45,214 nt of DNA from a virus. The notes below the pieces were generated by a model that was given only the letters and a program-made list of their open reading frames with translations, was not told where the DNA came from and did no database searches. Shown here in pieces: positions 9,698 to 39,976 of the stretch; positions within the stretch are counted from its first letter, which is position 1; every line of letters starts with the position of its first letter. Made by a program: the position numbers and the translations under genes. The stretch lies in the IMG/VR virus record IMGVR_UViG_3300014839_000014, positions 1 through 45,214 of that record; one strand, written 5' to 3'.

Positions 9698-9719
9698 CAG
9701 AGAAGGAAAGGAAAATATA

Positions 9720-10262: not shown

Positions 10263-10289
10263 ACCTAGACTCAAGGAAAGGAAACCAAT

Positions 10290-21807: not shown

Positions 21808-23307
21808 ATGTCATCTAATACTGGATGGGGCATAACAAAACAGGGATTCGTCATGCCACTAATGACGGATATTATCACCGACCTTAATCAAGCGCTCCAG
21901 GCGCAGTTTGGCGCGGGTATTAATCTAAGCCCCGAGTCGTTCTTTGGTCAGCTTGTTGGAATTATGGCCGAGCGGATCGAGCTTGTTTGGGAGGCTGCGC
22001 AGGACGTTTATTTTTCTCAGACACCCAATACAGCCCTTGGAGCATCGCTTGATAATGTTGGAGCACTGCGCGGGATTCCCAGACTTCAATCAACTTCATC
22101 TACAGTTCAAAATGTTCGTTTATTTGGAGCTGCCGGAACGCTGATTCCTAACACAACTCAATTTTCGGTGGTGGGGTCGCCTTTATCAATATTCCAAATA
22201 AGCTCAGCCGTTACGCTGGCTGCGGGAAGAAGTTGTATACAAAACGTCGCATTTTCCGCCATTTCTGTGGCTGGAAACTGGTCGTTGTCTATTAACGGAT
22301 CGGCCTCTGCCTCTCTGCCGTACAATGCAACTGCATTGCAAGTTCAGAATGCGATACAGGCGTTAACGTTTTGTTCTGGATGCACGGTTACTGGAAACAT
22401 GACGTCGGGATTTGTTATTACGTTTAATGGAGCTGGTACTGGCGGGTTAATGGTTCAGCCCTTGTTTGGAGTAACAACCGATACACTTTTAGATTCTGGA
22501 TCTAATCCTGTAATCATTACGCCGAGCATTGTTACTTCTGGAATAGACCAAGCAAGCGTTACCTTAATCGCCGTAAACGCCGGCCCGGTATCTGCAAACG
22601 CAGGAGCGGTAACGGTCATTGTTACGCCGATCTCTGGGCTATCTGCTGTTTTAAATACAGAGGACGCGGTTGCGGGAACCAATGTTGAAACAGATAGCGC
22701 GTACCGCGCGCGTATGGCCGCAGAGCTTGCCTCGGTTGGTGCTGCTACTGTTCCGGCAATTCAAGAAAAGCTAATGACTGTCGAGGGCGTAACCTCAGCC
22801 CTTGTTTATGAGAACATCACAGATATAACAGATGGCCACGGGCGGCCGCCGCATAGTTTTGAATGCGTAGTCAGCGGTGGAAGTGATTCAGACGTTGCAT
22901 ACATGATCTGGAATAATAAGCCGGCTGGAATTGCAACCTATGGAACATCGTCTTTTATAATCACAGACTCACAGGGCCAGCAGCATACGATTTATTTTTC
23001 TCGTCCGTCTCAAGTGGACCTCTACTTAATTGTGAATCTTGTTGTTAATGGTAACTATCCGTCTTCTGGAAATTCATTAGTTCAACAACTATTATCCACA
23101 TATATAAACAGTCTGGGTCAGGGCGTAAGCGTTATCGTGATACCAAACCTTATCGCGCAGCTTGCGGCTATTGCTGGAATTGATGGCGCTGTGATTCTTA
23201 TTGGAACCTCTCCAAGTCCGTCTAGCTCCAATAATATTCCAATCGCAGCTTATCAACAGGCGTATACCCAAACCGACTTTATAACCGTTAACACTGTTCC
23301 GGGATAA
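21808..23307 (+). CDS. Baseplate J-like wedge protein
   Basis: 499 residues. N-terminal GFVMPLMTDIITDLNQALQA, then LVWEAAQDVYFSQTPNTALGAS and DNVGALRGIPR are typical of Mu gp47/P2 gpJ. The C-terminal part has EDAVAGTNVETDSAYRARMA and VEGVTSALVYENITD, also typical. An extra beta-rich module of about 90 residues (roughly 145-235, containing GNWSLSINGSASASLPYNAT) interrupts the family fold and resembles the module inserted in the sheath. The protein forms the wedge core of the baseplate. Confidence 0.9.
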   Translation: MSSNTGWGITKQGFVMPLMTDIITDLNQALQAQFGAGINLSPESFFGQLVGIMAERIELVWEAAQDVYFSQTPNTALGASLDNVGALRGIPRLQSTSSTVQNVRLFGAAGTLIPNTTQFSVVGSPLSIFQISSAVTLAAGRSCIQNVAFSAISVAGNWSLSINGSASASLPYNATALQVQNAIQALTFCSGCTVTGNMTSGFVITFNGAGTGGLMVQPLFGVTTDTLLDSGSNPVIITPSIVTSGIDQASVTLIAVNAGPVSANAGAVTVIVTPISGLSAVLNTEDAVAGTNVETDSAYRARMAAELASVGAATVPAIQEKLMTVEGVTSALVYENITDITDGHGRPPHSFECVVSGGSDSDVAYMIWNNKPAGIATYGTSSFIITDSQGQQHTIYFSRPSQVDLYLIVNLVVNGNYPSSGNSLVQQLLSTYINSLGQGVSVIVIPNLIAQLAAIAGIDGAVILIGTSPSPSSSNNIPIAAYQQAYTQTDFITVNTVPG

Positions 23308-24014: not shown

Positions 24015-24497
24015 ATGCCAAGTAGACCTTCAGTAATGCCGATATGGACCGTTGGAAACACTCCGGCGAGAACACAACCAACAGACGGCGAACAATTTTC
24101 GGGGTTTTCTCCGAATCAGCGCCCTAGTGCTTATTGGCATAACTGGCTATGGGGTGTGATGTCTGACTGGCTTGCCTGGTTTGATTACGTGATTCAAACC
24201 GGACAATCTCCTATGTCTGTAGCCACACCAACAGGCGTATACGTTGCGGCCAACCCAGTAACAAAGATTATTGCTAACCCGGCAGGTGGGGCGTTTAATA
24301 TTACGCTTCCGTCCGCCGCTTTAAATCTTGGATATCAGTTGACAATTAAAAACGTCTTTGGAGGATCCAATAACGTAACGGTTTTACCTTCTGGCAGCGA
24401 TCTATTAGAGGGCCAATCATCGATCGTTTTAGCTCCAGGCGATGCCATCACGCTCTGCTCGGATGGCGTGAATAAGTACCACAGCTTTAATCCATAA
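24015..24497 (+). CDS. Tail fibre-region structural protein (160 aa)
   Basis: 160 residues. The N-terminus (MPIWTVGNTPARTQPTDGE then GFSPNQRPSAYWHNWLWGVMSDWL) is typical of short phage proteins that begin tail-fibre clusters. The C-terminal part is beta-rich (AFNITLPSAALNLGYQLTIKN, NNVTVLPSGSDLLEGQSS) and ends with GDAITLCSDGVNKYHSF, a fold used in fibre tips. It lacks a signal peptide, unlike the next protein. It is likely a virion-bound fibre base or small receptor-binding protein. AAGGAGATTAT is a strong ribosome site. Confidence 0.7.
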   Translation: MPSRPSVMPIWTVGNTPARTQPTDGEQFSGFSPNQRPSAYWHNWLWGVMSDWLAWFDYVIQTGQSPMSVATPTGVYVAANPVTKIIANPAGGAFNITLPSAALNLGYQLTIKNVFGGSNNVTVLPSGSDLLEGQSSIVLAPGDAITLCSDGVNKYHSFNP

Positions 24498-24507
24498 CGG
24501 GGGAACA

Positions 24508-25536
24508 ATGAAAAATATAATCCTATCAATCTCAATACTTCTCGCGGCTTCCCTGTCGTGGGCGAAGTCCATAGATCAAGTTTATGTAATGCCTCACTCT
24601 GGCAATGTACCTGTTTGGGGCCAGGTTGATCTGAGTCAGTCTGCTTCTGTAAAGAATCAGCTTTCGGCCGCAAATGGTGGAACCGGGGCATCTTCTCTGT
24701 CGTTGGCCTTTGTTTCTCTTTATGAAACGGTTTCAACCGCAACCGGAGATCTTATTTATGGCGACGGAAGTGGCGCTCCCACCAGGCTGCCTGGAAACAC
24801 AACAACCTCAACTAAGGTTCTTACTCAAACTGGAAATGGTAGTATTTCTGCCGCTCCGGTATGGAGAACCTTTTCGGCTCCCACGGCTCAGCACTTCCTA
24901 ACTGGAAGTGGAACATATACTACTCCGGCAGGCGCACTATATATTAAAGTAACGGTGGTTGGAGGCGGAGGCGGTGGCGGAGGCGGTGGCGGAGGAACCC
25001 CCGGAGGAAATGGTGGGATCGGATCTAACTCTACTTTTGGAACGTCTTTATTAACCGCTGCCGGGGGTGGTGGCGGAGAAGGCGCCGCAAATGCTTACGG
25101 TGGGGGCCGGGCCGGCTCCGGAGGGGGCACGGTTACAATCAATTCTCCTGCAATACAAGTCTATGCAGTTACGGGCGGTGGCCAAACATCTGGAACTAGC
25201 GCACAACCAAACCAAAGCACAGGAGGAGTTGGAAACTCTAACGGTTTTGGCGGTGGAGGCGGAGGCGCAATAAATAACTACGCCGGAGAGACCGCTGTGG
25301 CCAATACTGGCGCTGGAGGTGGCGGTGGAGGATCTGGGTCTGGCGGTGGATTTGGCGGAGGCGGTGGCGCGGCAGGAGGATATGCAGAGGCGCTTATAAG
25401 CGCTCCATCGGCATCATATTCTTACTCGGTGGGTGCAGGCGGAACGGCCGGAACAGCTTCAAACGATCCTGGAAATGGATATTCAGGCGGAGCGGGCGGA
25501 TCGGGCATGATTGTTGTTCAGGAGTATTATCAATAA
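24508..25536 (+). CDS. Glycine-rich adhesin-like fibre protein with Sec signal peptide
   Basis: 342 residues. Residues 1-19 are a clear Sec signal peptide (KN, then IILSISILLAASLSWA, cleavage after AxA-like SWA). Next come ANGGTGASS and LIYGDGSGAPTRL fibre-type segments, then GTYTTPAGALYIKVTVVGGG leading into long polyglycine runs (about 150-335) with GGGGGGAxN patterns. Such domains form polyglycine II sandwiches in T-even-type adhesins. The signal peptide is unusual for a fibre protein made in the cytoplasm, and three other large proteins nearby share it. GGGGGAACA precedes the ATG. Confidence 0.8.
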   Translation: MKNIILSISILLAASLSWAKSIDQVYVMPHSGNVPVWGQVDLSQSASVKNQLSAANGGTGASSLSLAFVSLYETVSTATGDLIYGDGSGAPTRLPGNTTTSTKVLTQTGNGSISAAPVWRTFSAPTAQHFLTGSGTYTTPAGALYIKVTVVGGGGGGGGGGGGTPGGNGGIGSNSTFGTSLLTAAGGGGGEGAANAYGGGRAGSGGGTVTINSPAIQVYAVTGGGQTSGTSAQPNQSTGGVGNSNGFGGGGGGAINNYAGETAVANTGAGGGGGGSGSGGGFGGGGGAAGGYAEALISAPSASYSYSVGAGGTAGTASNDPGNGYSGGAGGSGMIVVQEYYQ

Positions 25537-25537
25537 C

Positions 25538-25783
25538 ATGAGCGAATCAATCGAGGTACGTCTAGCACGAATAGAAGAGCGACAGATAAGATCCGACGAG
25601 CGCATGGAGGCAAACCATGACGAAATCATGGGGAACATACGCCCATTAATAGTTGTTTCCAAAAAAGATCATGACTCTATCGTGATTTTAAAGAGGGATC
25701 GATTTTGGATATTTGCGCTTGCTGGCTCGGCTATAAGTGCGGCAGGATATGCTTTGATTGATCGATTTATCGGTAGAACTTAA
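25538..25783 (+). CDS. Coiled-coil protein with C-terminal membrane helix, holin-accessory-like
   Basis: 81 residues from ATG 25538. The N-terminal part is a charged helix with heptads (EVRLARIEERQIRSDERMEA), the C-terminus a single membrane helix (FWIFALAGSAISAAGYALI) and a short basic tail. This is the layout of XhlA-like lysis accessory proteins. It opens a group of membrane genes that ends in the spanin-like pair, which supports a lysis role. The start chosen avoids a shadow extension to 25511 inside the previous gene. Confidence 0.68.
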   Translation: MSESIEVRLARIEERQIRSDERMEANHDEIMGNIRPLIVVSKKDHDSIVILKRDRFWIFALAGSAISAAGYALIDRFIGRT

Positions 25784-25813
25784 CGTCGGCATGACCGACA
25801 GAAAGAGGGAAGT

Positions 25814-26032
25814 ATGGCACAGAACATTATCGCGTTTCTTCAGGCGCACGGACTTGGGATGATCCTGTTAGTATTCACACTTATCAGTATTTTGTTGGAT
25901 ACAGCGGCAAAAATCTTTTTGGCGCTAGGGAAAGTCGCTCCAGCCTGGCTTGCTACGGGTGCAAACTGGGTTGGAAAGATTATTCATTTCTTAAATGGAA
26001 ATACAACGGCCGCCGCACAGATACAAAAATAA
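25814..26032 (+). CDS. Small membrane protein, candidate holin
   Basis: 72 residues. Residues 12-40 form a hydrophobic helix (GLGMILLVFTLISILLDTAA), followed by a moderately hydrophobic stretch with Pro and Trp (KVAPAWLATGANWVGKIIHFL), so one or two membrane passes. Holins of this size let endolysin reach the wall. The position between the XhlA-like and spanin-like genes fits. A small 5-bp inverted repeat (GTCGG/CCGAC) lies just upstream, and AGAGGGAAGT gives the ribosome site. The stop overlaps the next ATG (TAATG). Confidence 0.65.
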   Translation: MAQNIIAFLQAHGLGMILLVFTLISILLDTAAKIFLALGKVAPAWLATGANWVGKIIHFLNGNTTAAAQIQK

Positions 26033-26256
26033 TGACCGCCGCGACGATTATTGCTGCAATTATCGCAATATTTAAGGCGATTCCTGTACTAGATAGCTGG
26101 TTTCGGGAGCTGTTGGCTTCCTATCTGTCGAGTCAGGCAACGGAAACGCAAACACAAATATGCGATGCTGCGGCAATGTCCGCGAGGGCCAAAACTGATG
26201 ATGACCGTTATAAGGCCGCTGCTGCTTGGCAGTCTGCTATGTCTCGTCCTCGGTAG
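26032..26256 (+). CDS. Inner-membrane spanin-like protein
   Basis: 74 residues: an N-terminal hydrophobic helix (TIIAAIIAIFKAIPVL) and a periplasmic-type helical tail rich in Ala, Gln and Thr (SSQATETQTQICDAAAMS, and DDRYKAAAAWQ). A lipoprotein gene starts inside it in another frame at 26198, which is the Rz/Rz1-style embedded arrangement. Inner spanins join with outer lipoprotein spanins to fuse the membranes at lysis. It is short for the family, so the assignment rests on architecture more than on sequence. Confidence 0.55.
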   Translation: MTAATIIAAIIAIFKAIPVLDSWFRELLASYLSSQATETQTQICDAAAMSARAKTDDDRYKAAAAWQSAMSRPR

Positions 26257-26494
26257 TTGCCGAACTGACTCTCCACCTCCAAAGGAGATATGTATCCTCG
26301 ATGGGTTCGGGGGTGGAGACTGTATTGAGTCAGATGGCTCTAAGCTGTACCGGCCGCCTTCTCAGATGATTAACTATTGGTCTACAAATCAGCCAGATAT
26401 ACAGGCGTTTGTGTCATGGTGTTATAATATCCCGCTGTCTTCGGCGGCCAAAAAAATGGAAGAAATTAATGACTCGGCGAGGGCGCATAAATGA
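26198..26494 (+). CDS. Outer-membrane lipoprotein, spanin-like
   Basis: 98 residues from ATG 26198 (26201 also possible). A lipoprotein signal, VIRPLLLGSLLCLVLGSC, has the lipobox L-G-S-C at about residues 18-21, followed by a Pro-rich start (RTDSPPPKEI) typical of outer spanins. The mature part has several Cys and an NYWSTNQPDIQAFVSWC segment. It starts inside the previous gene in a different frame, as in Rz1. A Gram-negative host is implied. The end overlaps the next start by 4 nt. Confidence 0.7.
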   Translation: MMTVIRPLLLGSLLCLVLGSCRTDSPPPKEICILDGFGGGDCIESDGSKLYRPPSQMINYWSTNQPDIQAFVSWCYNIPLSSAAKKMEEINDSARAHK

Positions 26495-26901
26495 TTTTTC
26501 GGCTTATACGAAATAAATACTGCTCGTCAGGAATTTTTGGAAAGCTAGTAAACGAAGAGGATAATACCATTGCCTATACGCTAGAACATGCATATGCAAA
26601 TGGAGATGTCTGGACGCCTAAGGTTGCTAAGGGAACGTATGTTTGTCGGCGGCACCAGCCAGAACACCTTCCATATGTAACCTTTATGATTACAAATGTT
26701 CCTCCGTTTCAAGGCGAGGAAGTAAATGGAATACTGATTCATATCGGAAATTATAATGAGGATTCTGAGGGCTGTGTCCTCCTTGGGGCAAACATTATGA
26801 ACCTTAATGTTCGACCAATGCTAACGGCAAGCGAGGCAACATTTAAGAAATTTATGAACGATCTGTCTGGTGTGGATTCGTTTGAGTTGTGCGTATCGTA
26901 A
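26491..26901 (+). CDS. DUF5675 family protein, possible lysis enzyme
   Basis: 136 residues. The family pattern is clear: SSGIFGKLVNEEDNTIAYTLEHA (short charged start), KVAKGTYVCRRH, then ILIHIGNYNEDSEGCVLLG with H and C residues placed like those in L,D-transpeptidase-type active sites. The C-terminus is FKKFMNDL. DUF5675 proteins are common in phages and suspected to act on peptidoglycan, but the activity is not settled. It sits with holin- and spanin-like genes, and no other endolysin was found in the window, so it is the best candidate for the wall-degrading enzyme. Confidence 0.72.
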   Translation: MIFRLIRNKYCSSGIFGKLVNEEDNTIAYTLEHAYANGDVWTPKVAKGTYVCRRHQPEHLPYVTFMITNVPPFQGEEVNGILIHIGNYNEDSEGCVLLGANIMNLNVRPMLTASEATFKKFMNDLSGVDSFELCVS

Positions 26902-26912
26902 AGGAGACTTCT

Positions 26913-29048
26913 ATGAAATTTTTTATTCAACTTCTGCCATTATTGGTTCTGTGCTCTATCGGGGTTGCCGCAGATAATCTTATAAGCGATGGAACCTCTG
27001 GAAACTGGCAGTTAATTGATAACGCCAATAACCGATGGAATGCGCACGTTGCCTATACTACAGACGGAAGCGGAGATATTTATACTCTTGGCGGGCTGTC
27101 TGCTTCTGCGGATAACGTAATTGGAGACGCCCTTTCTGGAAACCATCAGCTCATTGATAATAATGGGGCCAGGTGGGGCCTTAGCGTATGGTATACAACC
27201 GACGGCGCAGGAAATGTTATTCCGATCTCTGGCGGAGGAGGTGGTGGTGGGGTTGCGTCTGTTACGGCTTCGGCTCCAGTTTTAAGCTCTGGCGGATCTC
27301 ATCCAAATATTACGATAACCAAATCAGACGCTACTCATAATGGCTATCTGGCAAGTGCAGACTGGACAACATTCAACAATAAGCAAGATACGCTCGCGGC
27401 GGCTAATGGCACTACGAATGGTTATTTAGTTAGTACTGACTGGAGTACGTTTAGCGGAAAGATTGGCGGAACTGGGACAGTAAACACAGTACCAAAGTTT
27501 ATCAGCCCAAACACACTATCCGCTTCTTCTATTACAGACGATGGGCTAAACCATGTGGGTATTAACAATACGGCCTATGATTCCGCTCTCCACATTACTG
27601 CTGGCCATATTACACAGACCGGGACTACCACAATAAACTCGCCCACAATAACCGTTGCAGACGCTACTGGAATCGTAGCTGGAATGTGGGTGTCTGATTC
27701 TGCGGGAGCATTCACTAATTCTAATTTTTCTCCAGTTCAGATTGAAACTATGTACAGGGTTGTGACTGTTGTAGGAACCAGTATAACGCTGAATCAAAAT
27801 GCTGCGTCTACTCAGGCCGCTGACACATTTACTTTCTCTAATCCGAGTCTGTTAATAGCAGACTATGGCAATCCTACTCGTGGATTATTTATTGGGGCAA
27901 CTGACGGATTTGGCAGACCAACTCTAAATTGGGCTGCACCGAACAGTATGCTGAAGCTTGGTCAATGGAACGTAGACGGCGATCCATACGAGATTCCATC
28001 GCAGGGGCTAGTCACTTATTTTAATACTATCAATGGCACGCCGCTCGATAATACCAATGGAAGCATCCAGTTATTTGGCCAGAATATCCTATGGTTTGCC
28101 GACATGGAAAATGGCGCATATAACACATGGATGAACATTGACCCAACAAGCATGTATTATGCTGATTACAACACGGGCAATGTTAAATTCAGCGTGCAGA
28201 GTGCAACTGGTAACACGGTTATTGCTGGAACCGTCCAGATTAAAGGCGGATCTCCTGCTGCTGGCTACGTACTTACTTCGGATGCGACTGGTAATGCCAC
28301 ATGGCAAACTGGCGGAGGAGGAGGGGTTACTAGCGTAACCGGAACAGCTCCCGTGGTTTCCTCTGGAGGAACTACTCCTGCGATATCAATGCACGCAGCA
28401 GACACAAGCCATGATGGTTATCTATCTTCTGCGGATTGGACTGCCTTTAATGGCAAACAGGCCACGCTTGGGTTTACTCCGGTTGCAAATACCGAGACAA
28501 TATCTACAAGCTCTCCGCTATCTGGAGGGGGAGACCTGTCGGCAAACCGAACAATATCTATTACAAAGGCCGACGGGAGTACAAACGGATATCTTGCGTC
28601 GTCTGACTGGACTGCGTTCAACAGCAAAGCCGCAGTAAGCCGACGAACGATTTCTCTTACCAACGCAACAGTTTTTTTGGTTGCGGCAGGCTCTCAGTCG
28701 GATGTAAATAGTATTTCGGTCGTTCGCAACACCGACGATATCGTAATTTCTGCAATTCCGTCTGGGGTTAAGGTTATTTCGATATGTGTAAACTACACGT
28801 CCATGGTGAATTCGTCTGGGTCAGCCTATGTGTATTATCCGGAGCCAAACGGATCAACGACTCTTTCAGCGGCAACTCTTCCGGCAATCATGCGGTTTAC
28901 TTCGGTCGGCGCGTGGATATCTAGTAGCACGGGCGCTTCGGTGGCGATTACAAACGTAAGTGGAACTTATATGGTTCAGCTCGGCCTTCCGATTGCGGCT
29001 GGGCAGTTCTCTCAGGCAGCGGGTGGAATAGCTAAGATCGTTCCATAG
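26913..29048 (+). CDS. Large fibre/adhesin protein with Sec signal peptide and NGYLSSADW repeats
   Basis: 711 residues from ATG 26913 (AAGGAG about 7 nt upstream). Residues 1-20 form a Sec signal peptide ending VAA. Two early GNWQLIDN/GNHQLIDN repeats follow, a VPISGGGGGGG hinge, then four copies of the module seen in several local proteins (NGYLASADWTTFNNKQ, NGYLVSTDWSTF, DGYLSSADWTAFNGKQ, NGYLASSDWTAFN). The middle is beta-rich with QLFGQNILWFADMENGAY. This is a long repetitive surface protein. The signal peptide predicts export, which a normal virion fibre would not need. Confidence 0.78.
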   Translation: MKFFIQLLPLLVLCSIGVAADNLISDGTSGNWQLIDNANNRWNAHVAYTTDGSGDIYTLGGLSASADNVIGDALSGNHQLIDNNGARWGLSVWYTTDGAGNVIPISGGGGGGGVASVTASAPVLSSGGSHPNITITKSDATHNGYLASADWTTFNNKQDTLAAANGTTNGYLVSTDWSTFSGKIGGTGTVNTVPKFISPNTLSASSITDDGLNHVGINNTAYDSALHITAGHITQTGTTTINSPTITVADATGIVAGMWVSDSAGAFTNSNFSPVQIETMYRVVTVVGTSITLNQNAASTQAADTFTFSNPSLLIADYGNPTRGLFIGATDGFGRPTLNWAAPNSMLKLGQWNVDGDPYEIPSQGLVTYFNTINGTPLDNTNGSIQLFGQNILWFADMENGAYNTWMNIDPTSMYYADYNTGNVKFSVQSATGNTVIAGTVQIKGGSPAAGYVLTSDATGNATWQTGGGGGVTSVTGTAPVVSSGGTTPAISMHAADTSHDGYLSSADWTAFNGKQATLGFTPVANTETISTSSPLSGGGDLSANRTISITKADGSTNGYLASSDWTAFNSKAAVSRRTISLTNATVFLVAAGSQSDVNSISVVRNTDDIVISAIPSGVKVISICVNYTSMVNSSGSAYVYYPEPNGSTTLSAATLPAIMRFTSVGAWISSSTGASVAITNVSGTYMVQLGLPIAAGQFSQAAGGIAKIVP

Positions 29049-29064
29049 TAAGAAGAGGAAAGAA

Positions 29065-30831
29065 ATGTCACTTCCAAAACTAAACGCGAAAATCACGCTA
29101 ACGAACTTTGAGCCTATAACTCCACCTTCCGTTTGGAAGTTGACGTTTAATGTTTTCGATCTTGAAGGCATTTTTTACGCAACAGATATTCAAGTTGGGG
29201 ATATGATTTGTTTGGACACAAGCGCGTCATATCCCGAAACGATAACAAGATATCGTGTAACATCGATAGATCCGGCCACCACGCCGTCCGTAGGCGTTAT
29301 GACCGTTACCTTTGATGACAACATGGATCCTAGTTCAATCGACATTACTGCGGCCCAACCCGACGGCTTAGTGTGTCATCCTAGTACAAATAATAAATTT
29401 TCATATACCGCAGACCCTTCAGCGCAGGGGCTTCCAACCAAATTTGTTACCTATCTTCGTAATAGGGATTTCGAGATTGTTGATTCAATGGCTGCATCGG
29501 GAGGAAACTATTCCGAGATAGTTCGACATACTATTACCCCTGAAGATATTACGGCCAAGCAGTTTCTTTTTAGCCCATCTCTTTTGGCTCCCCTTAATGT
29601 TATGGCCTTTGTGTCTGGTGGGGCGGCGTGCATGCCTCCTAACGACTTTGAAATAACATCTGGAAATACGTTTAATTGGAACGGTAAAAACCTAGACAAC
29701 GTGATTTCTGCGGGTGACGTTGTTGTTTTGGTATATGCAAACGCAAGCGGAACGCCTCCAGAGCCATTTCCAATTAATACGTATACCCAGCCTAAAGGAG
29801 TGCTAACAACGGCAGATGTTGGAAAGTTTTTAATGGATGACTCTGGGGTTGCCGCCGTGTGTTCACAAACGGCGCCGGTACCTGGACAATATAATACATG
29901 GACGATCGAGTTTTTAGGTATTCCAGTTGTAGGTGCTCCAACAAAGTTTACAGTTGAAATATTAGCTATACCAACGGTAAATACAGACCGCCTTAACTTC
30001 ATTGGCGGTGCTCCCTACACTCCATATGGCGGCTCGGATTGGGCCGAGGGAGCTACGATTGAAGAGGTTGCTGCGAATCTAGCAACTGCATGGACAAATA
30101 TAAACCCGGACGATAATGGAAACTTTTATATTGCGGTTGCTGTCGGATCAGTGGTTACGTTTACAGCTCAGCAAAATAGGCCATCTGGAAGTAGCACATT
30201 TCAATGGGTAGGAAATCCTGCTCATGCTTCCGTAACTCAAACCCAGGTTGGAATTGCAGCAAGCACGTTTTATTTTGATAATTATAGCGATGCACAGTTT
30301 GTTGTTTATGGAGATAACTGGACCACGGCGCTTAACCTTTCCGACTTGGCCGCGAACTTTGTAACAGCTTGGAACTTATTAAGTCCGGCTCCCATTTGGT
30401 GGAAGCTAGACCAAAACGCAGAACCAATTAGTGACACTCCGTGGGTTGCCTCTTCGACCGGCGCATTGGTTACTCTTACTCAACAGGCGTTTGGAGACCC
30501 TGGATACATTGGTCCAACAGCACTAAATTTTCCAGATAACCCTACAATAATAAATACCGTAGTTGGCGTGGACTATGTTCCCCCAAAGTCTGTTAAGTCA
30601 TTTTTGGGGCGATTAAAAGCTATCGATGGGGCGAGCGCAGTAATTGAGGTTTTGCCCTTTTATTCCGCTATCGCGAAGGGTGCAATTGACGCATCGGGAG
30701 GAGATGGAAACAATAATGGAAGGGTGTCCGCCGTAGACGGAACGCATGTTGAACAAAGCGGACAAAGCCCAGTTTATGCCGGGAAAGCGTTTTTTGATGT
30801 GGTAGACGGGGGAACTGTAATTTTTAAGTGA
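29065..30831 (+). CDS. Large beta-rich structural protein of fibre region
   Basis: 588 residues with no signal peptide, starting on an AGAGGAAAG ribosome site. The protein is nearly all beta, with two or three modules similar to those inserted in the sheath and J-like proteins (for example RLNFIGGAPYTPYGGSDW... LATAWTNIN and FVVYGDNWTTALNLSDLAANF). It has a DGDGNNNGRVSAVDG-like Gly/Asn-rich end (GGDGNNNGRVSAVDGTHVEQ). No enzyme motif is seen. It probably forms part of the tail-fibre network. The stop is followed closely by a small gene. Confidence 0.65.
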   Translation: MSLPKLNAKITLTNFEPITPPSVWKLTFNVFDLEGIFYATDIQVGDMICLDTSASYPETITRYRVTSIDPATTPSVGVMTVTFDDNMDPSSIDITAAQPDGLVCHPSTNNKFSYTADPSAQGLPTKFVTYLRNRDFEIVDSMAASGGNYSEIVRHTITPEDITAKQFLFSPSLLAPLNVMAFVSGGAACMPPNDFEITSGNTFNWNGKNLDNVISAGDVVVLVYANASGTPPEPFPINTYTQPKGVLTTADVGKFLMDDSGVAAVCSQTAPVPGQYNTWTIEFLGIPVVGAPTKFTVEILAIPTVNTDRLNFIGGAPYTPYGGSDWAEGATIEEVAANLATAWTNINPDDNGNFYIAVAVGSVVTFTAQQNRPSGSSTFQWVGNPAHASVTQTQVGIAASTFYFDNYSDAQFVVYGDNWTTALNLSDLAANFVTAWNLLSPAPIWWKLDQNAEPISDTPWVASSTGALVTLTQQAFGDPGYIGPTALNFPDNPTIINTVVGVDYVPPKSVKSFLGRLKAIDGASAVIEVLPFYSAIAKGAIDASGGDGNNNGRVSAVDGTHVEQSGQSPVYAGKAFFDVVDGGTVIFK

Positions 30832-30839
30832 GGAATAAT

Positions 30840-31052
30840 ATGCCAGGACAAAATACGATCATAATTAAAAAAATTACTGGAGAAGTCATCCAAACAATTC
30901 ATGATTCGGGTATATCAATTATTCCACGGGTATCCGATACGCTGAGGATAACCATGGGCACAAGCAGTATTCTTTTTAAAGTTATTGGCGTTATTATTGG
31001 TGTGCCCAATAAGGGTATCATAGAGATTTTAGTTGTTGATCTAGTAAAATAG
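30840..31052 (+). CDS. Small hydrophobic beta-rich protein (70 aa)
   Basis: 70 residues from ATG 30840, 5 nt after GAGGA; a GTG at 30828 overlapping the previous stop is an alternative start. The sequence is Ile/Val-rich (NTIIIKKITGEVIQTIHDSG, SSILFKVIGVIIGVPNKGII) and reads as beta strands rather than membrane helices. No family recognised. It lies between two fibre-type genes and may be a fibre chaperone or small structural piece. Confidence 0.6.
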   Translation: MPGQNTIIIKKITGEVIQTIHDSGISIIPRVSDTLRITMGTSSILFKVIGVIIGVPNKGIIEILVVDLVK

Positions 31053-31078
31053 TTTTTAAACCAAGGAAGGAAGTCGAT

Positions 31079-32257
31079 ATGAAATATCTAGTTTTATTAT
31101 TGGTCTTGGCGTCAACCGTGGCGCAGGGAGCAATAATTAATCCCAAGTTCTTGCCGTGTAACGTGGCAAATGGAGTCGCCTGTACTAATGGAGCAAACAA
31201 AATCGACGTAGCACAATTGCCAAGTGCAACGATGATTTTTAAAGACACGTTTGATCCAACGGCCACCCCTGCAAGCCCGCTTTTAAATGGCGATGTTCTA
31301 GCTCGGGCTGGCGACGAATACATAGCCACCCAACAGGGTACCTATGATTTTGGAGCCGGTGGAGTATTATTTCAGACTGGAGATTTCGCTATTTATAACG
31401 GAAGCATTTGGCGTCATTCCCCTGCGGCCGACGGCGTTGTGTCGGTAAACGGTTTACAGGGTGCTGTGGTTTTACACACAGACGATATCAGTGAAGGTGG
31501 AAGCCCAACTAATATGTGGTTCACAAACACAAGGGCAAGGGGCGCAGTTTCGGCCTCGGCTCCTTTGTCGTTTAATTCGGGAACTGGAGTTTTTTCAATT
31601 CCTCAAGCCGGAGCAAGTGCAAATGGATATCTATCCTCTGCCGACTGGAGCACGTTTAATGGAAAGCAATCTTCATTATCCTTTACCGCTCCGCTTGTAA
31701 ACACCACTGGAACCGTATCAATACACGTGGCCGATGCATCTGATAATGGTTATCTGTCTTCTGCTGACTGGAGTTCGTTTAATGGTAAGGTTAGTAGCCA
31801 GTGGACAACGACTGGATCTGATATTTATTACAACGCTGGAAACGTAGGAATTGGAACAACGTCTCCTGGATCTTTTAAGTTAGACCTCGAGGGAACTTCC
31901 GGTGCAACGCTTAAGGTTGTAGATGGAAATCAGGGCGTTGGGAAAATCCTAACTTCGGATGCAAACGGCGTTGCGTCTTGGACTAGCCCTGCGGCAACCC
32001 CAACATGGTTGCATCAGGATATTACGCTGGTAACGCTTGATATAACGCATCAATATATAGACGCCTCACAGCAGTGCCTTCCGGCTTCTGTAATGCTAAG
32101 TATAAGTGGTGTTTGGGGCGTGTTGACTGCCGACTACACGCTTTCGGTTGTAAGCAGTAAAACTCGTATTAGCTTTGTGGCGACCACGGGCTTTGGAACC
32201 GGAAGCCCTCAGGCTCTTGCTGCTGGAGACGTGATTAGTTTAGTATGTCAATACTAA
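31079..32257 (+). CDS. Fibre/adhesin protein with Sec signal peptide and NGYLSSADW repeats
   Basis: 392 residues. Residues 1-18 are a signal peptide (LVLLLVLASTVAQGA core, AQGA cleavage). Then come a DTFDPTATPASPLLNGDVLA segment, GSIWRHSPAADGVVSVNGLQ and two repeat modules (NGYLSSADWSTFNGKQ and NGYLSSADWSSFNGK). The C-terminus is a beta domain (IDASQQCLPASVMLSISGVW). AAGGAAGGAAG is the ribosome site. It resembles the 711- and 713-residue proteins and may arise by module duplication. Confidence 0.76.
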   Translation: MKYLVLLLVLASTVAQGAIINPKFLPCNVANGVACTNGANKIDVAQLPSATMIFKDTFDPTATPASPLLNGDVLARAGDEYIATQQGTYDFGAGGVLFQTGDFAIYNGSIWRHSPAADGVVSVNGLQGAVVLHTDDISEGGSPTNMWFTNTRARGAVSASAPLSFNSGTGVFSIPQAGASANGYLSSADWSTFNGKQSSLSFTAPLVNTTGTVSIHVADASDNGYLSSADWSSFNGKVSSQWTTTGSDIYYNAGNVGIGTTSPGSFKLDLEGTSGATLKVVDGNQGVGKILTSDANGVASWTSPAATPTWLHQDITLVTLDITHQYIDASQQCLPASVMLSISGVWGVLTADYTLSVVSSKTRISFVATTGFGTGSPQALAAGDVISLVCQY

Positions 32258-32271
32258 TAGAATAACAACGG

Positions 32272-32293
32272 GGAGGGGGCTTCGGCTCCCTCC
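32272..32293 (+). terminator. UUCG-loop hairpin between fibre genes
   Basis: GGAGGGGGC pairs with GCTCCCTCC (one G-T pair) around a TTCG tetraloop, which makes an exceptionally stable hairpin. There is no T run after it (ACATTAGC follows), so it may pause or protect mRNA ends rather than terminate transcription by itself. It lies in the 60-bp gap between two fibre genes. Confidence 0.5.
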
Positions 32294-32317
32294 ACATTAG
32301 CTAACGGGGCCTGCTCT

Positions 32318-34459
32318 ATGCAACTAACAAGGTTAATAATAATTGGTTTACTAGTCGGATTGCAGCCGGCATATGCGGCTAGAATCTCGGCTAAGTTTGT
32401 TACTGCTGCGGGTTCCGATAATCAGATTCAATTTAATAACTCTGGGTCATTTGGAGCTAGTTCTTATTTTACTTATCAGCACGCGCTCGGTGAGCTTTGG
32501 TTAAGTGGTCTAGGTAACTTAACCCTTGATGCAATACTTATCGGGGGTTCGTCGCAGGCCGGACCCTCGCTCCTTGCAAACCAGCCAGGCGAAGCCGTTT
32601 TAATCGGATCTGGAACTGGCCCTAATCTTTCGGGCGGAGGAACATATGATGTTCATGTCGGGTTTCACGCGGGAAAAACACTAACAACTGGCACGGGTAA
32701 CACAATAACTGGAACAAACTCAGACGTTGCAGCGGCATCATCTTACAACTCTGTTTATGGTTTTGCCGCAAGTGCTACCGGAAATAGAAGTGTTTCGATT
32801 GGATCTTACGACGGCGGAGGGTATTCCGCTAGTGCGTCGGGCAATAGTGCCGTGGCCGTTGGTAACGGTGCCGTAGCATCTGGAAACACGTCAAGCGCTT
32901 TTGGCAGCCCCGCAAACGCGGGAGGAGATTACTCTGCTGCATTTGTTGGAAACGCTGCGGGACAGTATGCTTCAGCGTTTGGTTATGGCTCTTCGGCAAG
33001 TGGCACGGGCGGGCTTGCAATTGGTGGCTATTCAACATCAACCTCTGGTGCCTATGCAACCATGATTGGCTATCACATCACTGGCGGCTCATACGCTGGT
33101 GCAGTGGCAATTGGTGCTGACCATACAGGAACAGGTGCGGCGCCCACAGCACAAGATGATTTTATTTTGGGAACCGCAAACCATCACGTAAAGATTCTAG
33201 GAACTCTTGCTGCTCCAACCATAAAGCTTACTACCGGCGCAGGCGCGGGGTTGGTGTTGACCTCTGACGCCAGCGGAAACGGAAGCTGGACAAGCGCCGG
33301 AGCAGGAACCGTAACGGCAGTAACCGCATCAAGTCCACTTGCATCAAGTGGAAGTTCTGCTCCAAACATTACAATTTCTAAGTCCGACGGAAGCACAAAT
33401 GGATATCTCTCCTCCGCCGATTGGACAACTTTTAATAATAAGCAGGCTGCGCTTGCTAAGGCAGACGCTTCGCATGATGGATATCTATCAAGCGGAGACT
33501 GGAGCACATTTAATTCCGCAAGCTCTGCACAGACGTTTCATAATGAAACATATAATCTGGGAATAAAGGCCGCGATCGCCTCAAACACGCTAGTTGTAAG
33601 TTTGGTTCAGGCCGATGGGTCCACAAATCCATCAACTGGCGCGGCGGCAGTTAAGGTTGGATTTAGAAGCACAACGGCAACGACCGGAGGATATTCAGAG
33701 GTTTCATTTACTGCTGCTGCATCAATAACGCTTGCTGCTGCGGACTCTATTGGAGCTGTGGCGGCGGTACAGGCTGGGCTTTATGTTTACTTAATTTCTG
33801 ATTCGACAAATGAAATCTGTTTATCGTTTGGACAGATTGACGACAGCGTTGTTCAGTCTGCTTCGGCGCTTACTGGCGGAGCAGATACGGACGGAACAAA
33901 GCTTTGGTGTACTGGTGCTCATACATCTAGGCCAACTAGATTAATTGGGCGAGTTGTAGCTACATGGTCAAACCCAAACTGGGGATCTATAACGAATGTA
34001 AACATTACTGATAATATACCGATTATTACATCATGGATTCCCTATACCCCCACCATTAGTGCTGGAATGTGTGGAGGTGGCTGCAATTTAATATCCTTTT
34101 TTTGGCGCAGAGTTGGTGACACCTTAGAGGTGAGAGGTAACTGGACAAACGGAACCGTAAGTGGATCTGTTGCCTCTATCTCTCTGCCTACTGGCCTGAC
34201 AATGGATGCATCAAAACTACCAACCTTAGCCGCATCAACTGCATCAATGGTTGGCACTTGGTGGCACAACAATCACGCCTATGAAGATGGAGCAATTCTT
34301 TCTCAAACATCAACCTCTCCCAATAATGATTATACCAAAGTGAACTTTGGAACTAGCACTACAGGGACAGGAATGCTGACTCCACAGTGGGCAAGCAGCA
34401 TCATGTCTGGCTATGATGTGCTCTCAGCTAACTTTGCTGTTCCTGTTGTGGGGTGGTGA
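32318..34459 (+). CDS. Large adhesin with Sec signal peptide and YadA-head-like repeats
   Basis: 713 residues. Signal peptide of about 20 residues (TRLIIIGLLVGLQPAYA). Residues about 140-280 consist of 14-16-residue repeats such as GNSAVAVGNGAVASGN, SSAFGS, YASAFGYGSSASG and GGLAIGG, the left-handed beta-roll pattern of trimeric autotransporter heads. Two NGYLSSADWTTFN-type modules follow, then a beta C-terminus (YTPTISAGMCGGGCNLISFF). It combines a bacterial adhesin head pattern with the local phage repeat. It has no autotransporter anchor at the C-terminus. No strong ribosome site: GGGGCCTGCTCT precedes the ATG. Confidence 0.78.
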   Translation: MQLTRLIIIGLLVGLQPAYAARISAKFVTAAGSDNQIQFNNSGSFGASSYFTYQHALGELWLSGLGNLTLDAILIGGSSQAGPSLLANQPGEAVLIGSGTGPNLSGGGTYDVHVGFHAGKTLTTGTGNTITGTNSDVAAASSYNSVYGFAASATGNRSVSIGSYDGGGYSASASGNSAVAVGNGAVASGNTSSAFGSPANAGGDYSAAFVGNAAGQYASAFGYGSSASGTGGLAIGGYSTSTSGAYATMIGYHITGGSYAGAVAIGADHTGTGAAPTAQDDFILGTANHHVKILGTLAAPTIKLTTGAGAGLVLTSDASGNGSWTSAGAGTVTAVTASSPLASSGSSAPNITISKSDGSTNGYLSSADWTTFNNKQAALAKADASHDGYLSSGDWSTFNSASSAQTFHNETYNLGIKAAIASNTLVVSLVQADGSTNPSTGAAAVKVGFRSTTATTGGYSEVSFTAAASITLAAADSIGAVAAVQAGLYVYLISDSTNEICLSFGQIDDSVVQSASALTGGADTDGTKLWCTGAHTSRPTRLIGRVVATWSNPNWGSITNVNITDNIPIITSWIPYTPTISAGMCGGGCNLISFFWRRVGDTLEVRGNWTNGTVSGSVASISLPTGLTMDASKLPTLAASTASMVGTWWHNNHAYEDGAILSQTSTSPNNDYTKVNFGTSTTGTGMLTPQWASSIMSGYDVLSANFAVPVVGW

Positions 34460-34461
34460 TT

Positions 34462-34656
34462 ATGAAAGAACGATGGGCTTTAATTATATTGATTCTATCC
34501 CTCTCGAGCTGTGCAACTACCATGGACCACGGGATGCGCGCGTTTGATCGCTGCGCTAAGCATTGCAAGGATAATCCAACACTATCTGTAAAAATTACCG
34601 GAGAAATAGATTTAGGCATTGACTGCGAGTGCGGTCAGAACAAGGAGAGTTTATGA
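34462..34656 (+). CDS. Small lipoprotein
   Basis: 64 residues from ATG 34462. The signal is RWALIILILSLSSC with a lipobox L-S-S-C near residues 14-17, then ATTMDHG. The mature part is only about 45 residues, with paired Cys (RCAKHC and DCECG), so it would be a small disulphide-bonded lipid-anchored protein. It is the fifth exported product of this region. Possible roles: superinfection exclusion or a second spanin-type lipoprotein. The stop overlaps the next start as ATGA. Confidence 0.7.
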   Translation: MKERWALIILILSLSSCATTMDHGMRAFDRCAKHCKDNPTLSVKITGEIDLGIDCECGQNKESL

Positions 34657-35378
34657 TCATTCCAGCTAATCAGCCGATTCCATTTAGTGCGGACTATGGC
34701 GCATCAGGATTGAATATAGGCGCAAAAGTCTTTGATTGTAGCTCTGGCTCTCCTGTGCAGTTAACGGGACGCCCTGGGCAAACGTCGGGCGTATATCCGC
34801 TATCCAACGTTGCCGGGAGCTTCTGCTACCTGTTTACATTCTCCGGCCTTCCTCAGCATTCTTATCTGGTTCTTATCCAGGCTTATACGGACAATGCCTT
34901 TACGATAGTTGACATAAGTAAGCCGGAATTCTCGGAGTCGGTCTCAGCGAAGATTTTGGCACCGCTTATAACTTATAAATTAAAAATTGAGCTTGGTTGT
35001 GAAAACCAGCCTCCACAGAGGCCGGTTATTGTCGCGCAGAATTCAGACGCAAACATTGTTCTGTCCTTCTTTGATGAGGATAGAAATCCGATTGATATTA
35101 CATCTGCCACCGAGCTTGAAATCAAAATGATGGAGCACGACAATATAACTGTTTTAATTAAAGAGCTTGGCGCGGCCATTTCCCTGATCGATGGGCATCC
35201 AAACCAAGTCCTTCTCGAGATGCGCGCGGCAGACTTTGAGGTGTTGCCTGGCGGAGACAACGATATTTCGGTTACTCTTCATCTTGCTGGATCAACATAC
35301 GTTATCAATCTTTACGATGCAATAAACGTAGAGCCAGACGTAACTGAAGTTTGGGTTAACGGACACCCGGTTTTTTAA
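34653..35378 (+). CDS. Beta-rich protein at end of late operon
   Basis: 241 residues from ATG 34653 (ATGA overlap, AAGGAG upstream). Two similar beta halves: QPIPFSADYGASGLNIGAKVFDC, then an IVLSFFDEDRNPIDITSATELEIKM half, and VNLYDA-like C-terminal strands (STYVINLYDAINVEP). The pattern resembles N-terminal domains of small phage baseplate or fibre-attachment proteins, but no family is certain. It is the last rightward gene before the opposite-strand island; the two stop codons overlap by 23 nt tail to tail. A GGGT/ACCC mini-stem with TTTTTT overlaps its end. Confidence 0.6.
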   Translation: MIIPANQPIPFSADYGASGLNIGAKVFDCSSGSPVQLTGRPGQTSGVYPLSNVAGSFCYLFTFSGLPQHSYLVLIQAYTDNAFTIVDISKPEFSESVSAKILAPLITYKLKIELGCENQPPQRPVIVAQNSDANIVLSFFDEDRNPIDITSATELEIKMMEHDNITVLIKELGAAISLIDGHPNQVLLEMRAADFEVLPGGDNDISVTLHLAGSTYVINLYDAINVEPDVTEVWVNGHPVF

Positions 35379-35748: not shown

Positions 35749-36624
35749 CTAGACTGCGCCTGACTTCGACTTGAAAATCGGGTAGCCGTTGTTCCAAGCG
35801 ATGTACAAATCAAGGTGCGCCTGAAGCGCCCATTGAGCCTTGGTCGTTACCCAGGTCTTGCGAGTCATCCGGCTCAAGTCATTCCGAATCTTGGCGGCGG
35901 TATAGTTCAAGGCGAACATTGCATCGGGTCCGCCGTCTTTGGCGATCCGGCTTGGCACTTGGACGAACTCAGCATCCGGCGCAAACTTCTTTGCCAGCTT
36001 TGGATAATCGGTCTTGGCATCGCTCAAGATCGTGAGATTTGTTTTTGGCTTCTGGCGCTTGGCTACCATCTTGAACACGTCTTCACGGGCGGCGTCACGA
36101 GTGTCTTGCCGCCATCCGTATTTCTGTTGGGAAGTGGAAGCAGCTTTACCGTGGCAGTTCATTTCGCCAACACGAGCCTCAATGATTTCGCCGGTCTTAG
36201 CTCTGACGGCGAAGGCGATTGAGAGAGGTTTCAGCTTGGTATGCTCGAAGGTTTCCATCTCATCGAACTGAGCGTAGGTCGTGGTCAGACCGCCCGCAGC
36301 TACCTGTTTCTCATGGTACTTCCGGGCTTCGCCAGCGATGAACACGAGCTTGCGTGCGACGGTCTTGGGGTTGCAGCCAAGGACTATCGCCAACCGCCGT
36401 TGAGTGGTGCCCGATGCGTATAGTTTGAAAATCTCATGATTCAGTTCTGGCTTCTTCTGTCCTTCGGTTGGGCGTCCCGTATGCGAGCTAAAGAACTTTC
36501 CACATTTCTTACACTTGTAGCGGGGAACGGGCTGAGCGTTGTGCTTGTTCTTGAAATAGCCCTTCTTGATGAAGAACTTACCCGTGGCTTTGCATTCGGG
36601 ACACTCCGCAGGTTTGGTGAACAT
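35749..36624 (-). CDS. IS1-family-like transposase
   Basis: 291 residues. The N-terminal zinc ribbon is CPECKATGKF... then YKCKKCGKFFSSHTGRPT. A helix-turn-helix follows (LYASGTTQRRLAIVLGCNPKTVARK). The catalytic half has AQFDEMETFEHTKLKPLSIA with a first Asp, LTILSDAKTDYPKLAKKF with a second, and a C-terminal NDLSRMTRKTWVTTKAQWAL region that in this group contributes the last residues. It resembles IS1 InsB-type enzymes joined to InsA-type N-termini in one frame. It is intact. The 104-residue gene lies immediately upstream (3-nt gap). Confidence 0.85.
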   Translation of the reverse strand: MFTKPAECPECKATGKFFIKKGYFKNKHNAQPVPRYKCKKCGKFFSSHTGRPTEGQKKPELNHEIFKLYASGTTQRRLAIVLGCNPKTVARKLVFIAGEARKYHEKQVAAGGLTTTYAQFDEMETFEHTKLKPLSIAFAVRAKTGEIIEARVGEMNCHGKAASTSQQKYGWRQDTRDAAREDVFKMVAKRQKPKTNLTILSDAKTDYPKLAKKFAPDAEFVQVPSRIAKDGGPDAMFALNYTAAKIRNDLSRMTRKTWVTTKAQWALQAHLDLYIAWNNGYPIFKSKSGAV

Positions 36625-37388: not shown

Positions 37389-37703
37389 TTATTTGTGAAT
37401 CCATCTTTTTCTCGATTCACTTAACACCCATCCAGAATTAATTAGCCATCTATAAACAGTGTCATTATGAAGAGATAATTCTTCTATTCCGACGTCACGC
37501 ACTAAGAGGTGGCACCTTAAACACATCGGCATCACGTTCCAATAAAGATCCGACTTAACCCTAATATAATGCGGAATGCTTTTGATTGTTGTCGTTCTCA
37601 TATTCCTTAGCGCTTCCTCTGGGTTAAGGTCTGCGCAGGCAAGACATGGAATCCTAACGATTGTATCTATAAGGGCAACGTCTATGGTTTGGCGAAAGAC
37701 CAT
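37389..37703 (-). CDS. HNH-like protein at end of modification island
   Basis: 104 residues with a small zinc/HNH-like pattern: CLACADLNPEEALRN, then HYIRVKSDLYWNVMPMCLRC ending in CHLLVRDVG. The C-x2-C, HY-I, N and C-x2-CH order is that of HNH nucleases. Its ATG overlaps the stop of the ParB-like gene as TAATG, so it is cotranscribed with the island. It may cut unmodified DNA or assist homing; activity is not established. Confidence 0.68.
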   Translation of the reverse strand: MVFRQTIDVALIDTIVRIPCLACADLNPEEALRNMRTTTIKSIPHYIRVKSDLYWNVMPMCLRCHLLVRDVGIEELSLHNDTVYRWLINSGWVLSESRKRWIHK

Positions 37704-38272
37704 TAAGAATTTGTATCAAAACTTTGTCCACAATGCGGACATACATAGGTTTTAATCGCCTTCTGCCTACTGTCTACTAGGTCCTTAAATTTATTGCCGA
37801 GCGCATCTGAGGTATTATTAATATCCTCTTGAGACACTCCCGCGTGCGCCGTGCTTCCTATTGATTTTCCGTCGAGGATATCGGGATTAAGCTCTGGATA
37901 ATGAATAAGGAATGGCTCGAAATCAACAAGCTCTCGGATCTCCGGAATAAGGTTTGTTAACTCCCACGTTGCCTTTGTTGACGACTCGTTATCGATAATA
38001 CGATATGCCTTGGCCTGGTCATGATTTAGGTTAGAGATAAGGCATTCAATATGAGTTACCCCATTTCTCTTTGCCGCCTTATAGCGGGTATGTCCTGTAA
38101 TAATTACATATTCGGAGTCGAGCACTAAAGGAACATTAAGCCCATACGCATTGATCGATTCTTCTACGCCTCCGACTGCGTCGTCATTGTTTCTTGGGTT
38201 TCTCCAGTAGGGAACGATTTTTTCGATTGGTACAAGCTCTAGGCGTCCATTAAGCTTTAGTTGGTTTTCCAT
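37703..38272 (-). CDS. ParB-like protein with C-terminal zinc knuckle
   Basis: 189 residues from ATG 38272 (AAAGGA upstream; a longer frame to 38341 lies in the next gene). The ParB/Srx-type domain (about residues 10-110) shows LVPIEKIVPYWRNPRNND, VEESINAYGLNVPLVLDSEY and ITGHTRYKAAKRNG. The end has CPHCGQSFDTNS. ParB-fold proteins bind CTP or act on nucleotides and DNA; in phages they often pair with modification genes. It overlaps the next ParB-like gene by 23 nt. Confidence 0.8.
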   Translation of the reverse strand: MENQLKLNGRLELVPIEKIVPYWRNPRNNDDAVGGVEESINAYGLNVPLVLDSEYVIITGHTRYKAAKRNGVTHIECLISNLNHDQAKAYRIIDNESSTKATWELTNLIPEIRELVDFEPFLIHYPELNPDILDGKSIGSTAHAGVSQEDINNTSDALGNKFKDLVDSRQKAIKTYVCPHCGQSFDTNS

Positions 38273-38828
38273 TTTCGTGTTCCTTTCTAATTTGAATCTG
38301 TTTATCGGTTTCATACGCCCGAGAATACTGGGTGTTGGCAAACAGCTTAGAGAATCCCGTAATATGTTTTAGGCGCACTAGCTCATCAGCCTCCATGCCT
38401 AACTGATTACATATATCGGCGTCCTTCCATCCATTATTTAACATTTCAAAGACCATGGAGGACATCCCAGCAACACTATGTTTACCGCGCGCGCGATTGT
38501 GACTAACGGTTGCGGCCATTCGGTCGTTAATATCTTTCTTTAATACGGCGATCGGAAGAAGACCCCGGTTAAGATCATGAATGTCCTTATTCATTCTCAT
38601 TGTTGAATATCGGTGAAATCCGTCTACGATAACGTATTTATCTCGCTTTTCATCATAGATGGCGACGATGGGCTGAGTATACCCGTCGTTCTTTATCGAT
38701 ACATAGAGGAGCCGCATTTCATTAGTGGCAACTGCATTCGGGTTATAGTCGTTTGCCTCTACCTTATCGATCGGCACCCAAATAACATTAGATACTGGAT
38801 TATGCTTTACACAGTCTGGTGTACTCAT
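38250..38828 (-). CDS. ibrB: IbrB-like ParB-domain protein
   Basis: 192 residues. ParB-type motifs: WVPIDKVEANDYNPNAVAT, RLLYVSIKNDGYTQPIVAIY and VIVDGFHRYSTMRMN. A helical C-terminus follows (AGMSSMVFEMLNNGWKDADI). The gene directly follows the PAPS-reductase-like gene on an ATGA overlap. This is the IbrA-IbrB order described in E. coli (immunoglobulin-binding regulators) and seen in many phages. The pair is thought to act together on nucleic acids or nucleotides, but the reaction is unknown. The name is by similarity and order. Confidence 0.82.
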   Translation of the reverse strand: MSTPDCVKHNPVSNVIWVPIDKVEANDYNPNAVATNEMRLLYVSIKNDGYTQPIVAIYDEKRDKYVIVDGFHRYSTMRMNKDIHDLNRGLLPIAVLKKDINDRMAATVSHNRARGKHSVAGMSSMVFEMLNNGWKDADICNQLGMEADELVRLKHITGFSKLFANTQYSRAYETDKQIQIRKEHENGKPTKA

Positions 38829-39976
38829 TGTTTAGCCGCCTTACGTTCATTACGTCTGCGCTTATACTCTTCCCAGTGTTCGCGCGGGACGGGGACATTA
38901 TTTAGTTTTACGTGTTCCCAGTCGTTACATAGAATCGAGGTAATATGTAACCTCATTAGCTTGTCTCCAAAGATCCAACCAAGAAGCTCTTCCATTTCTT
39001 TAAACTTCTTTCGGAACCCCTCTTTCCAGTCGGGATTATCAATAAGGTTTTCCAAAAGATAATCTCTATATTCCTTCCAAGAGCTAAACATCGGAGGAAG
39101 GTGGTGAGGACAATAGAAATCATCCCATCCCATTTTGCCGGCCATGTCTATACCCTCAACGCGGGCAACGATCTTATTATAATTCTCCGGTTCTAGCTCC
39201 TGAAGAATAAACAGTGCTCGGACGGCCGTTTCATGGTGAAGATTAGATACGCGCATATCATTAACCGGCACGCCGTACTGATACATTTTATCGTAGACCT
39301 TATTATAGGGCCACCCGTTATCATGAATTGCCTTCCAAACGTCGGTATAAGACCAATCATAAATTGGGTAAAACGTATAGTGTTCTCGCCTCTTATTTAA
39401 TTCTTTTCCCCAGGTAACGCCTCCATAGGTATGCCCACCCGTTAGTCCGCTCGCACGCCTTGGGGATTCTTCTGCCCGGACGCCGGCAATATAACAGCTT
39501 TTCTGATTAGGAAACTCTACGGCAAAGATTCGCTCAAATAGTTCTCCAAAACGGTCGGTTCCATATCGATTCTCTTTATATGAGTTCGGCTCTTTAGGTC
39601 GGATCCAGTTGGCCTCGTCGTTGGGATTCCAACACTGAAGCCAGTGATCTTTGAATGACGTTGCATTAAATAGTTTAAAGGGAAACTGTAACCACATGGG
39701 GATTACTTCGGGCCGGAGCATAATTTCACGAACCGTGTCTACTGTTGATAGCCACTCCGCTTCTTGATCGAGCCACATAACACGAAGCGGGAGACGTCCC
39801 TTCTCACGTGCCACCAGGAGCGCTAGGTGGAGCACCACTGTACTATCTTTTCCTCCAGATACTCCGACGACTACATTAGGGAATTCGTCGAATAGCCAGC
39901 GTATACGGACGAGTGCAGCGTCAAACACATTCTCTTTAAGAAATACTTTCTTATTGCTCATTTGAGGCTTGTCCAA
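38825..39976 (-). CDS. ibrA: IbrA-like PAPS reductase / ATP pyrophosphatase family protein
   Basis: 383 residues from TTG 39976 (ATG 39961 is equally plausible; neither has a strong ribosome site, so coupling to the 36-aa ORF is likely). The PP-loop SGGKDS is at residues 40-45, inside VVVGVSGGKDSTVVLHLALL. Further family parts: VMWLDQEAEW, SCYIAGVRAEESPRRAS, HYTFYPIYDWSYTDVWKAI and DMRVSNLHHETAVRAL. PP-loop enzymes adenylate a substrate and often transfer sulphur; DndC of DNA phosphorothioation is a relative. IbrA-type enzymes lack a settled reaction. Confidence 0.88.
   Translation of the reverse strand: MDKPQMSNKKVFLKENVFDAALVRIRWLFDEFPNVVVGVSGGKDSTVVLHLALLVAREKGRLPLRVMWLDQEAEWLSTVDTVREIMLRPEVIPMWLQFPFKLFNATSFKDHWLQCWNPNDEANWIRPKEPNSYKENRYGTDRFGELFERIFAVEFPNQKSCYIAGVRAEESPRRASGLTGGHTYGGVTWGKELNKRREHYTFYPIYDWSYTDVWKAIHDNGWPYNKVYDKMYQYGVPVNDMRVSNLHHETAVRALFILQELEPENYNKIVARVEGIDMAGKMGWDDFYCPHHLPPMFSSWKEYRDYLLENLIDNPDWKEGFRKKFKEMEELLGWIFGDKLMRLHITSILCNDWEHVKLNNVPVPREHWEEYKRRRNERKAAKQ

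Follow-up and report, generated by a model that had tools for sequence, protein, structure and literature searches.

The usual site of tail fibre assembly is the cytoplasm. Fibre-like proteins with signal peptides are nevertheless described from Bdellovibrio bacteriovorus, in which the MAT (mosaic adhesive trimer) proteins resemble phage fibres (PMC10769870) and belong to a superfamily typified by a trimeric beta-prism fibre. Among phages, PblA and PblB of streptococcal prophages are tail proteins that work outside the cell once it has lysed (PMC9917116), and a putative signal peptide has been reported for pneumococcal PblB (PMC4508584). In S. mitis, lysis sets PblA and PblB free and they attach to other cells. 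They resemble the fibres described here in being phage tail proteins that serve as adhesins outside the cell, but they are single proteins of Gram-positive prophages, and neither of these two papers reports a multi-gene, cysteine-paired set. The open-licence papers searched gave no description of a phage group that has an exported fibre set; isolated precedents like PblB aside, this agrees with the first-pass annotation of the present locus, which knew of no standard description of such a set.

The window is the whole of a 45,214-base virus record (IMGVR_UViG_3300014839_000014). Its genes for terminase, portal, head, sheath, tape measure and baseplate are those of a contractile-tailed phage, and all matches of known phages to the structural genes tested are below 60% identity. 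The portal protein (4755-7073) carries a C-terminal NUDIX hydrolase domain (residues 640-751, 5.3e-14), and the corresponding frame of a relative (L223 1-1224) also ends in a NUDIX domain (1e-18). The region under study begins where the baseplate genes end and closes with a terminator-like site at 35351-35370, and a terminator scan found no strong intrinsic terminator between the fibre genes before 35351.

All of the genes in this part of the tail operon are on the plus strand. The fibre end begins with a baseplate J-like protein (21808..23307; Pfam Baseplate_J 3.3e-13, PHROG baseplate wedge 2.8e-57). It is followed by a protein without a signal peptide (24015..24497) that aligns with proteins of related phages and whose position suggests a virion adaptor or short fibre. 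The adaptor has an N-terminal motif, QPT-GEQ..WHNWL, that defines the clade, and a C-terminal domain that aligns with the C-terminal domain of the exported fibres. The first putatively exported fibre (24508..25536, 342 aa, Sec signal MKNIILSISILLAASLSWA) has a glycine-rich distal part and matches a PHROG for tail fibre assembly (6e-08). Then comes a lysis region (25538..26901), in the middle of the cluster as the first-pass annotation had placed it, with roles assigned from position and membrane segments. It comprises small membrane proteins at 25538 (with a homologue in the related contig L007), 25814 and 26032, a lipobox-bearing lipoprotein in a spanin-like position (26201-26494) and a DUF5675 protein (26491-26901; Pfam 5.4e-19). 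The second fibre (26913..29048, 711 aa, Sec signal MKFFIQLLPLLVLCSIGVAA) has a signal-bearing homologue in another relative (L170 9236-11491), and a 588-aa protein without a signal (29065..30831) has no convincing family match in Pfam or PHROG. The third (31079..32257, 392 aa, Sec signal MKYLVLLLVLASTVAQG) matches a minor tail protein PHROG (4.1e-16). The fourth (32318..34459, 713 aa, Sec signal MQLTRLIIIGLLVGLQPAYA) has four cysteines and weak YadA-head-like repeats (Pfam YadA_head E 0.0043, below cut-off). A 64-aa lipoprotein (34462..34656) with the lipobox LSSC and four further cysteines, for which Pfam and PHROG searches gave no family match, and a 241-aa protein without a signal (34653..35378), partly similar by eye to L170 11513-11905, complete the late operon. 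The signal-less cluster proteins at 29065, 30828 and 34653 are additions to the first-pass annotation. The assignment as fibres is based on the tail PHROG matches of 24508 and 31079, on a repeat motif in 26913 and 32318 that is common to many viral fibre genes, and on a position after the baseplate and adaptor genes in the late operon, which is where the tail fibres of Caudoviricetes lie.

Signals were called with a rule-based detector that combines n-region charge, an uncharged h-region, a hand-entered von Heijne cleavage matrix and a lipobox; it called 10 of 10 exported E. coli proteins and none of six control proteins. Of the 48 plus-strand genes scored between 0.2 and 35.4 kb, signal peptidase I type signals were called at 24508, 26913, 31079 and 32318 and lipoprotein signals only at 26201 and 34462. 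The remainder had no signal, and all six signal-bearing genes fall within 24.5-34.7 kb. This bears out the earlier reading of Sec signals on these four fibre-like proteins and of a small lipoprotein at 34462, and it adds the second lipoprotein at 26201. A previous version of the detector found no signal in any of nine minus-strand genes or 98 spurious ORF starts. A chance origin of the signals was considered and rejected, shuffled N-termini being called at a rate of only 1.5%. Start-codon misassignment was likewise rejected, since three of the four fibre starts have good ribosome-binding sites (that of 32318 is weaker); the correct start of 26913 lies 24 bases inside a longer GTG frame.

Relatives were recovered with the adaptor gene as bait, which gave ten contigs. 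One of these, L007, was also found by a baseplate bait, and a Baseplate J bait against genome contigs found no relative. The distinct further phages that cover the fibre region are L007, L165 and the L166-L170 group, making a clade of four phages with the window. The first-pass annotation had pointed to homologues as the place to look for the same signal, and it is present in all ten fibre-like genes after the adaptor in three relatives: 7569, 8526 and 8994 of L007; 7731, 8658 and 9256 of L165; and 4606, 5355, 5813 and 9236 of L170 (nine of the ten scored under the final detector, L165 9256 being left out). The adaptor lacks a signal in every clade phage covered, and the exported fibre genes directly follow it in L007, L165 and L170. 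Between homologues, the signal regions are 19-41% identical versus 47-74% for the next 40 residues, but every homologous signal keeps its n-h-c form, as expected if it is the form and not the sequence that is conserved. At the level of sequence, Sec signals on fibre-like proteins are real and conserved, and the signals are probably functional. In searches for a host, 290 genomes from the phylum of Bdellovibrio sp. qaytius showed no close prophage, and the baseplate matches in 63 genomes from the order of a Piscirickettsiaceae MAG were all distant. An adaptor profile gave one marginal match, containing a stop (E 6.8e-4), in 369 genomes of that MAG's class and nothing convincing in 58 genomes of another phylum. 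No named phage matched fibre 32318, the L170 adaptor or an L170 exported fibre.

We surveyed loci encoding the NGYLSSADW-type fibre repeat, reading the N-terminus wherever the gene start lies within the locus. Ordinary Caudoviricetes fibres with this repeat share the motif and the fibre-like make-up of the window fibres, but 72 of 73 lack a signal, and most of them have no cysteine or an odd number. The window has a signal on four of four fibres as against one of 73 viral motif genes, and so it departs from a trait that is typical of Caudoviricetes fibres, if not strictly defining. In cellular genomes, a signal was called on 28 of 50 motif proteins with the strict detector, and several that fell below it look signal-like by eye. 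Signals are therefore usual for cellular motif proteins and rare for viral ones, and the cellular motif proteins are often from Bdellovibrionota and Bacteroidota.

The MAT proteins are the nearest functional likeness to the window fibres: both are fibre-like with signal peptides, variable C-terminal tips and several paralogues, and the N-terminal signal of MAT proteins is present in the window fibres as well. The MAT proteins differ in being bacterial and in having a conserved beta-rich domain of ~130 aa straight after the signal, which the phage late-operon genes lack. We built an HMM from seven cellular proteins, five of them from named Bdellovibrionota-type MAGs and two from MAGs less well named, which have in common a YxGR N-terminal domain that we took to be the MAT domain. 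Leave-one-out controls scored from 1.7e-24 to 1.3e-62, while the window and clade fibres gave E 0.1 or worse. Since the defining domain is absent, we rejected membership of the window fibres in the MAT family.

Proteins that pass through the periplasm tend towards paired cysteines. The mature cysteine counts of 14 clade fibres are 0, 1, 4, 4, 2, 2, 4, 2, 2, 12, 0, 2, 14 and 8, so that 11 of the 12 cysteine-bearing ones have an even count. Within the window, 24508 has none, 26913 has a single (odd) cysteine and 31079 has four, at 27, 35, 333 and 390. Non-signal proteins on the same contigs divide into 10 even and 24 odd (10/34; Fisher p=0.0004 versus the exported fibres), and viral motif fibres without a signal into 8 even and 23 odd (8/31; p=0.0001), these p-values being generous since the homologues are not independent and the clade amounts to four distinct phages. 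A cleaner control is available within the phages, because two domains are common to the signal-less adaptor and the exported fibres. The exported copies have two cysteines 49 residues apart in five of six cases (L170 4606 lacks both), while the adaptor copies lack the pair, as do two named phages that have one of the domains in a signal-less protein. Even and paired cysteines supply independent support for real export.

A viral motif fibre with a signal, on contig L027, led to 37 contigs (its own included) of a siphovirus-like group that is unrelated to the window clade. The fibres carry a signal in 37 of 37 contigs, including nine or ten that match the query only from residue 13 onwards. The gene order is tape measure, distal tail, proteins of 224 and 83 aa, the signal-bearing fibre (about 770-1700 aa) and lysis genes, one of which encodes a lipoprotein. 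The window likewise passes from tail genes to a signal-bearing fibre and on to lysis genes. Most of these fibres have no cysteine and the others have mixed counts, so the disulfide argument is confined to the window clade. Two near-complete contigs have no fibre-like gene besides the signal-bearing one, which favours a role in the virion. From the style of the cleavage sites we would guess a host in Bacteroidota; a search of 296 genomes from the phylum of an Emticicia strain gave one weak match. In the contigs examined, a small signal-bearing protein (about 130 aa) follows the exported fibre (L198 8116-8553, L207 9647-10045 and L222 5772-6158) and is possibly a chaperone or partner of it. A separate siphovirus-like contig, L006, encodes a 1313-aa fibre with a signal peptide (6883-10824); a further fibre-like protein, encoded downstream, has none. 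No named phage matched the fibre N-termini of the second group or of L006.

The first-pass annotation had called export of tail fibres unexpected. Export has gained support from the homologous signals, the disulfide signature and a second, unrelated group; the sequences point strongly to export and more weakly to the later fate of the fibres. We consider it probable that the fibres are exported late, disulfide-bonded where their cysteines are paired, held in the periplasm and released at lysis. The four fibre proteins would be made late with cleavable Sec signals and would cross the inner membrane with removal of the signal, and those with paired cysteines would gain disulfides in the oxidising periplasm. 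They would wait there for the neighbouring lysis genes to open the cell, be freed together with the virions, and then act outside, where they would either attach to virions or bind receptors in free form. Of the single fates, docking after lysis onto the virions set free is the likeliest, ahead of free binding and then of display, though we put it somewhat under an even chance. It fits the second group best, since it would be strange for a phage to have no fibre at all; in the window clade, the adaptor could be the only fibre of the virion. A little more tentative is the generalization that tailed phages of at least two unrelated groups export receptor-binding fibres by Sec, with disulfides in one group, and join them to virions after lysis.

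A less likely fate is that the fibres are free, soluble receptor blockers, in which exported copies of the distal domains of the virion fibre occupy receptors and keep progeny off debris or already infected cells. Receptor blocking is a role of small lipoproteins such as T5 Llp. The lipobox in a small protein that marks such exclusion lipoproteins is found at 34462, beside the fibre genes as in the T5 Llp type, but the fibres themselves are not lipoproteins. The domain structure fits blocking: in L007, L165 and L170, the adaptor's C-terminal domain recurs at the end of the first exported fibre and its middle domain at the end of the second, and most exported domain copies carry the cysteine pair. 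The fibre genes also flank the lysis genes, with the small lipoprotein in the same block. The shared domains may, however, be trimerisation domains instead, and a mere decoy is unlikely where the exported fibre is the sole fibre-like gene, as in the near-complete contigs of the second group.

Display as adhesins on the host surface, by lysogenic conversion or late decoration in the manner of Bdellovibrio MAT or YadA-like adhesins, is improbable. It would accord with the usual presence of signals on cellular proteins of the same motif, often in Bdellovibrionota and Bacteroidota, and with the weak YadA-head likeness of 32318. Against it, the N-terminal domain of MAT proteins is missing and the genes are in the late operon. 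Pfam gave no anchor or autotransporter domain for the four window proteins, and no integrase was recognised in a search of window proteins. Display is made less likely by the lack of a recognised anchor, and the lack of a recognised outer-membrane or cell-wall anchor together with the late operon favours release at lysis over decoration of a living host. That the N-terminal segments serve as hydrophobic tips or as docking segments on ordinary fibres assembled in the usual cytoplasmic site, in line with the earlier suggestion that the signals are read differently, is very unlikely for the window clade, given an n-h-c form kept in homologues despite divergence, even cysteine counts in the exported fibres and paired cysteines only in the signal-bearing copies.

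Signals of this kind in the window phage, its relatives and an unrelated group suggest that the attachment fibres of some phages are built or used outside the cytoplasm. As it stands, the exported set is a variant of phage fibres and exported adhesins, and it would become more than that if post-lysis assembly is demonstrated, in which case tailed phages would have a split assembly route completed after lysis. If whole groups export their fibres, assembly, extracellular stability and protection of the progeny at lysis would differ in those phages. Phage receptor-binding proteins would then be misclassified, in annotation and in receptor prediction alike, by pipelines for which a signal peptide indicates a bacterial gene. 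Cysteine parity is a simple sequence test that is applicable to any phage collection.

Three further features of the window lie beyond the late operon. Near the end of the contig there is a minus-strand frame (44646-45152), possibly spurious, with a lipoprotein-like start and GGGVA repeats. Between the late and early genes lies a protein with a zinc ribbon and a helix-turn-helix and a transposase-like look (35749-36624). Finally, a ParB_N protein is encoded near a PAPS reductase/DUF3440 protein on the minus strand (37703-39976), an arrangement that we take to resemble the IbrA/IbrB pair.
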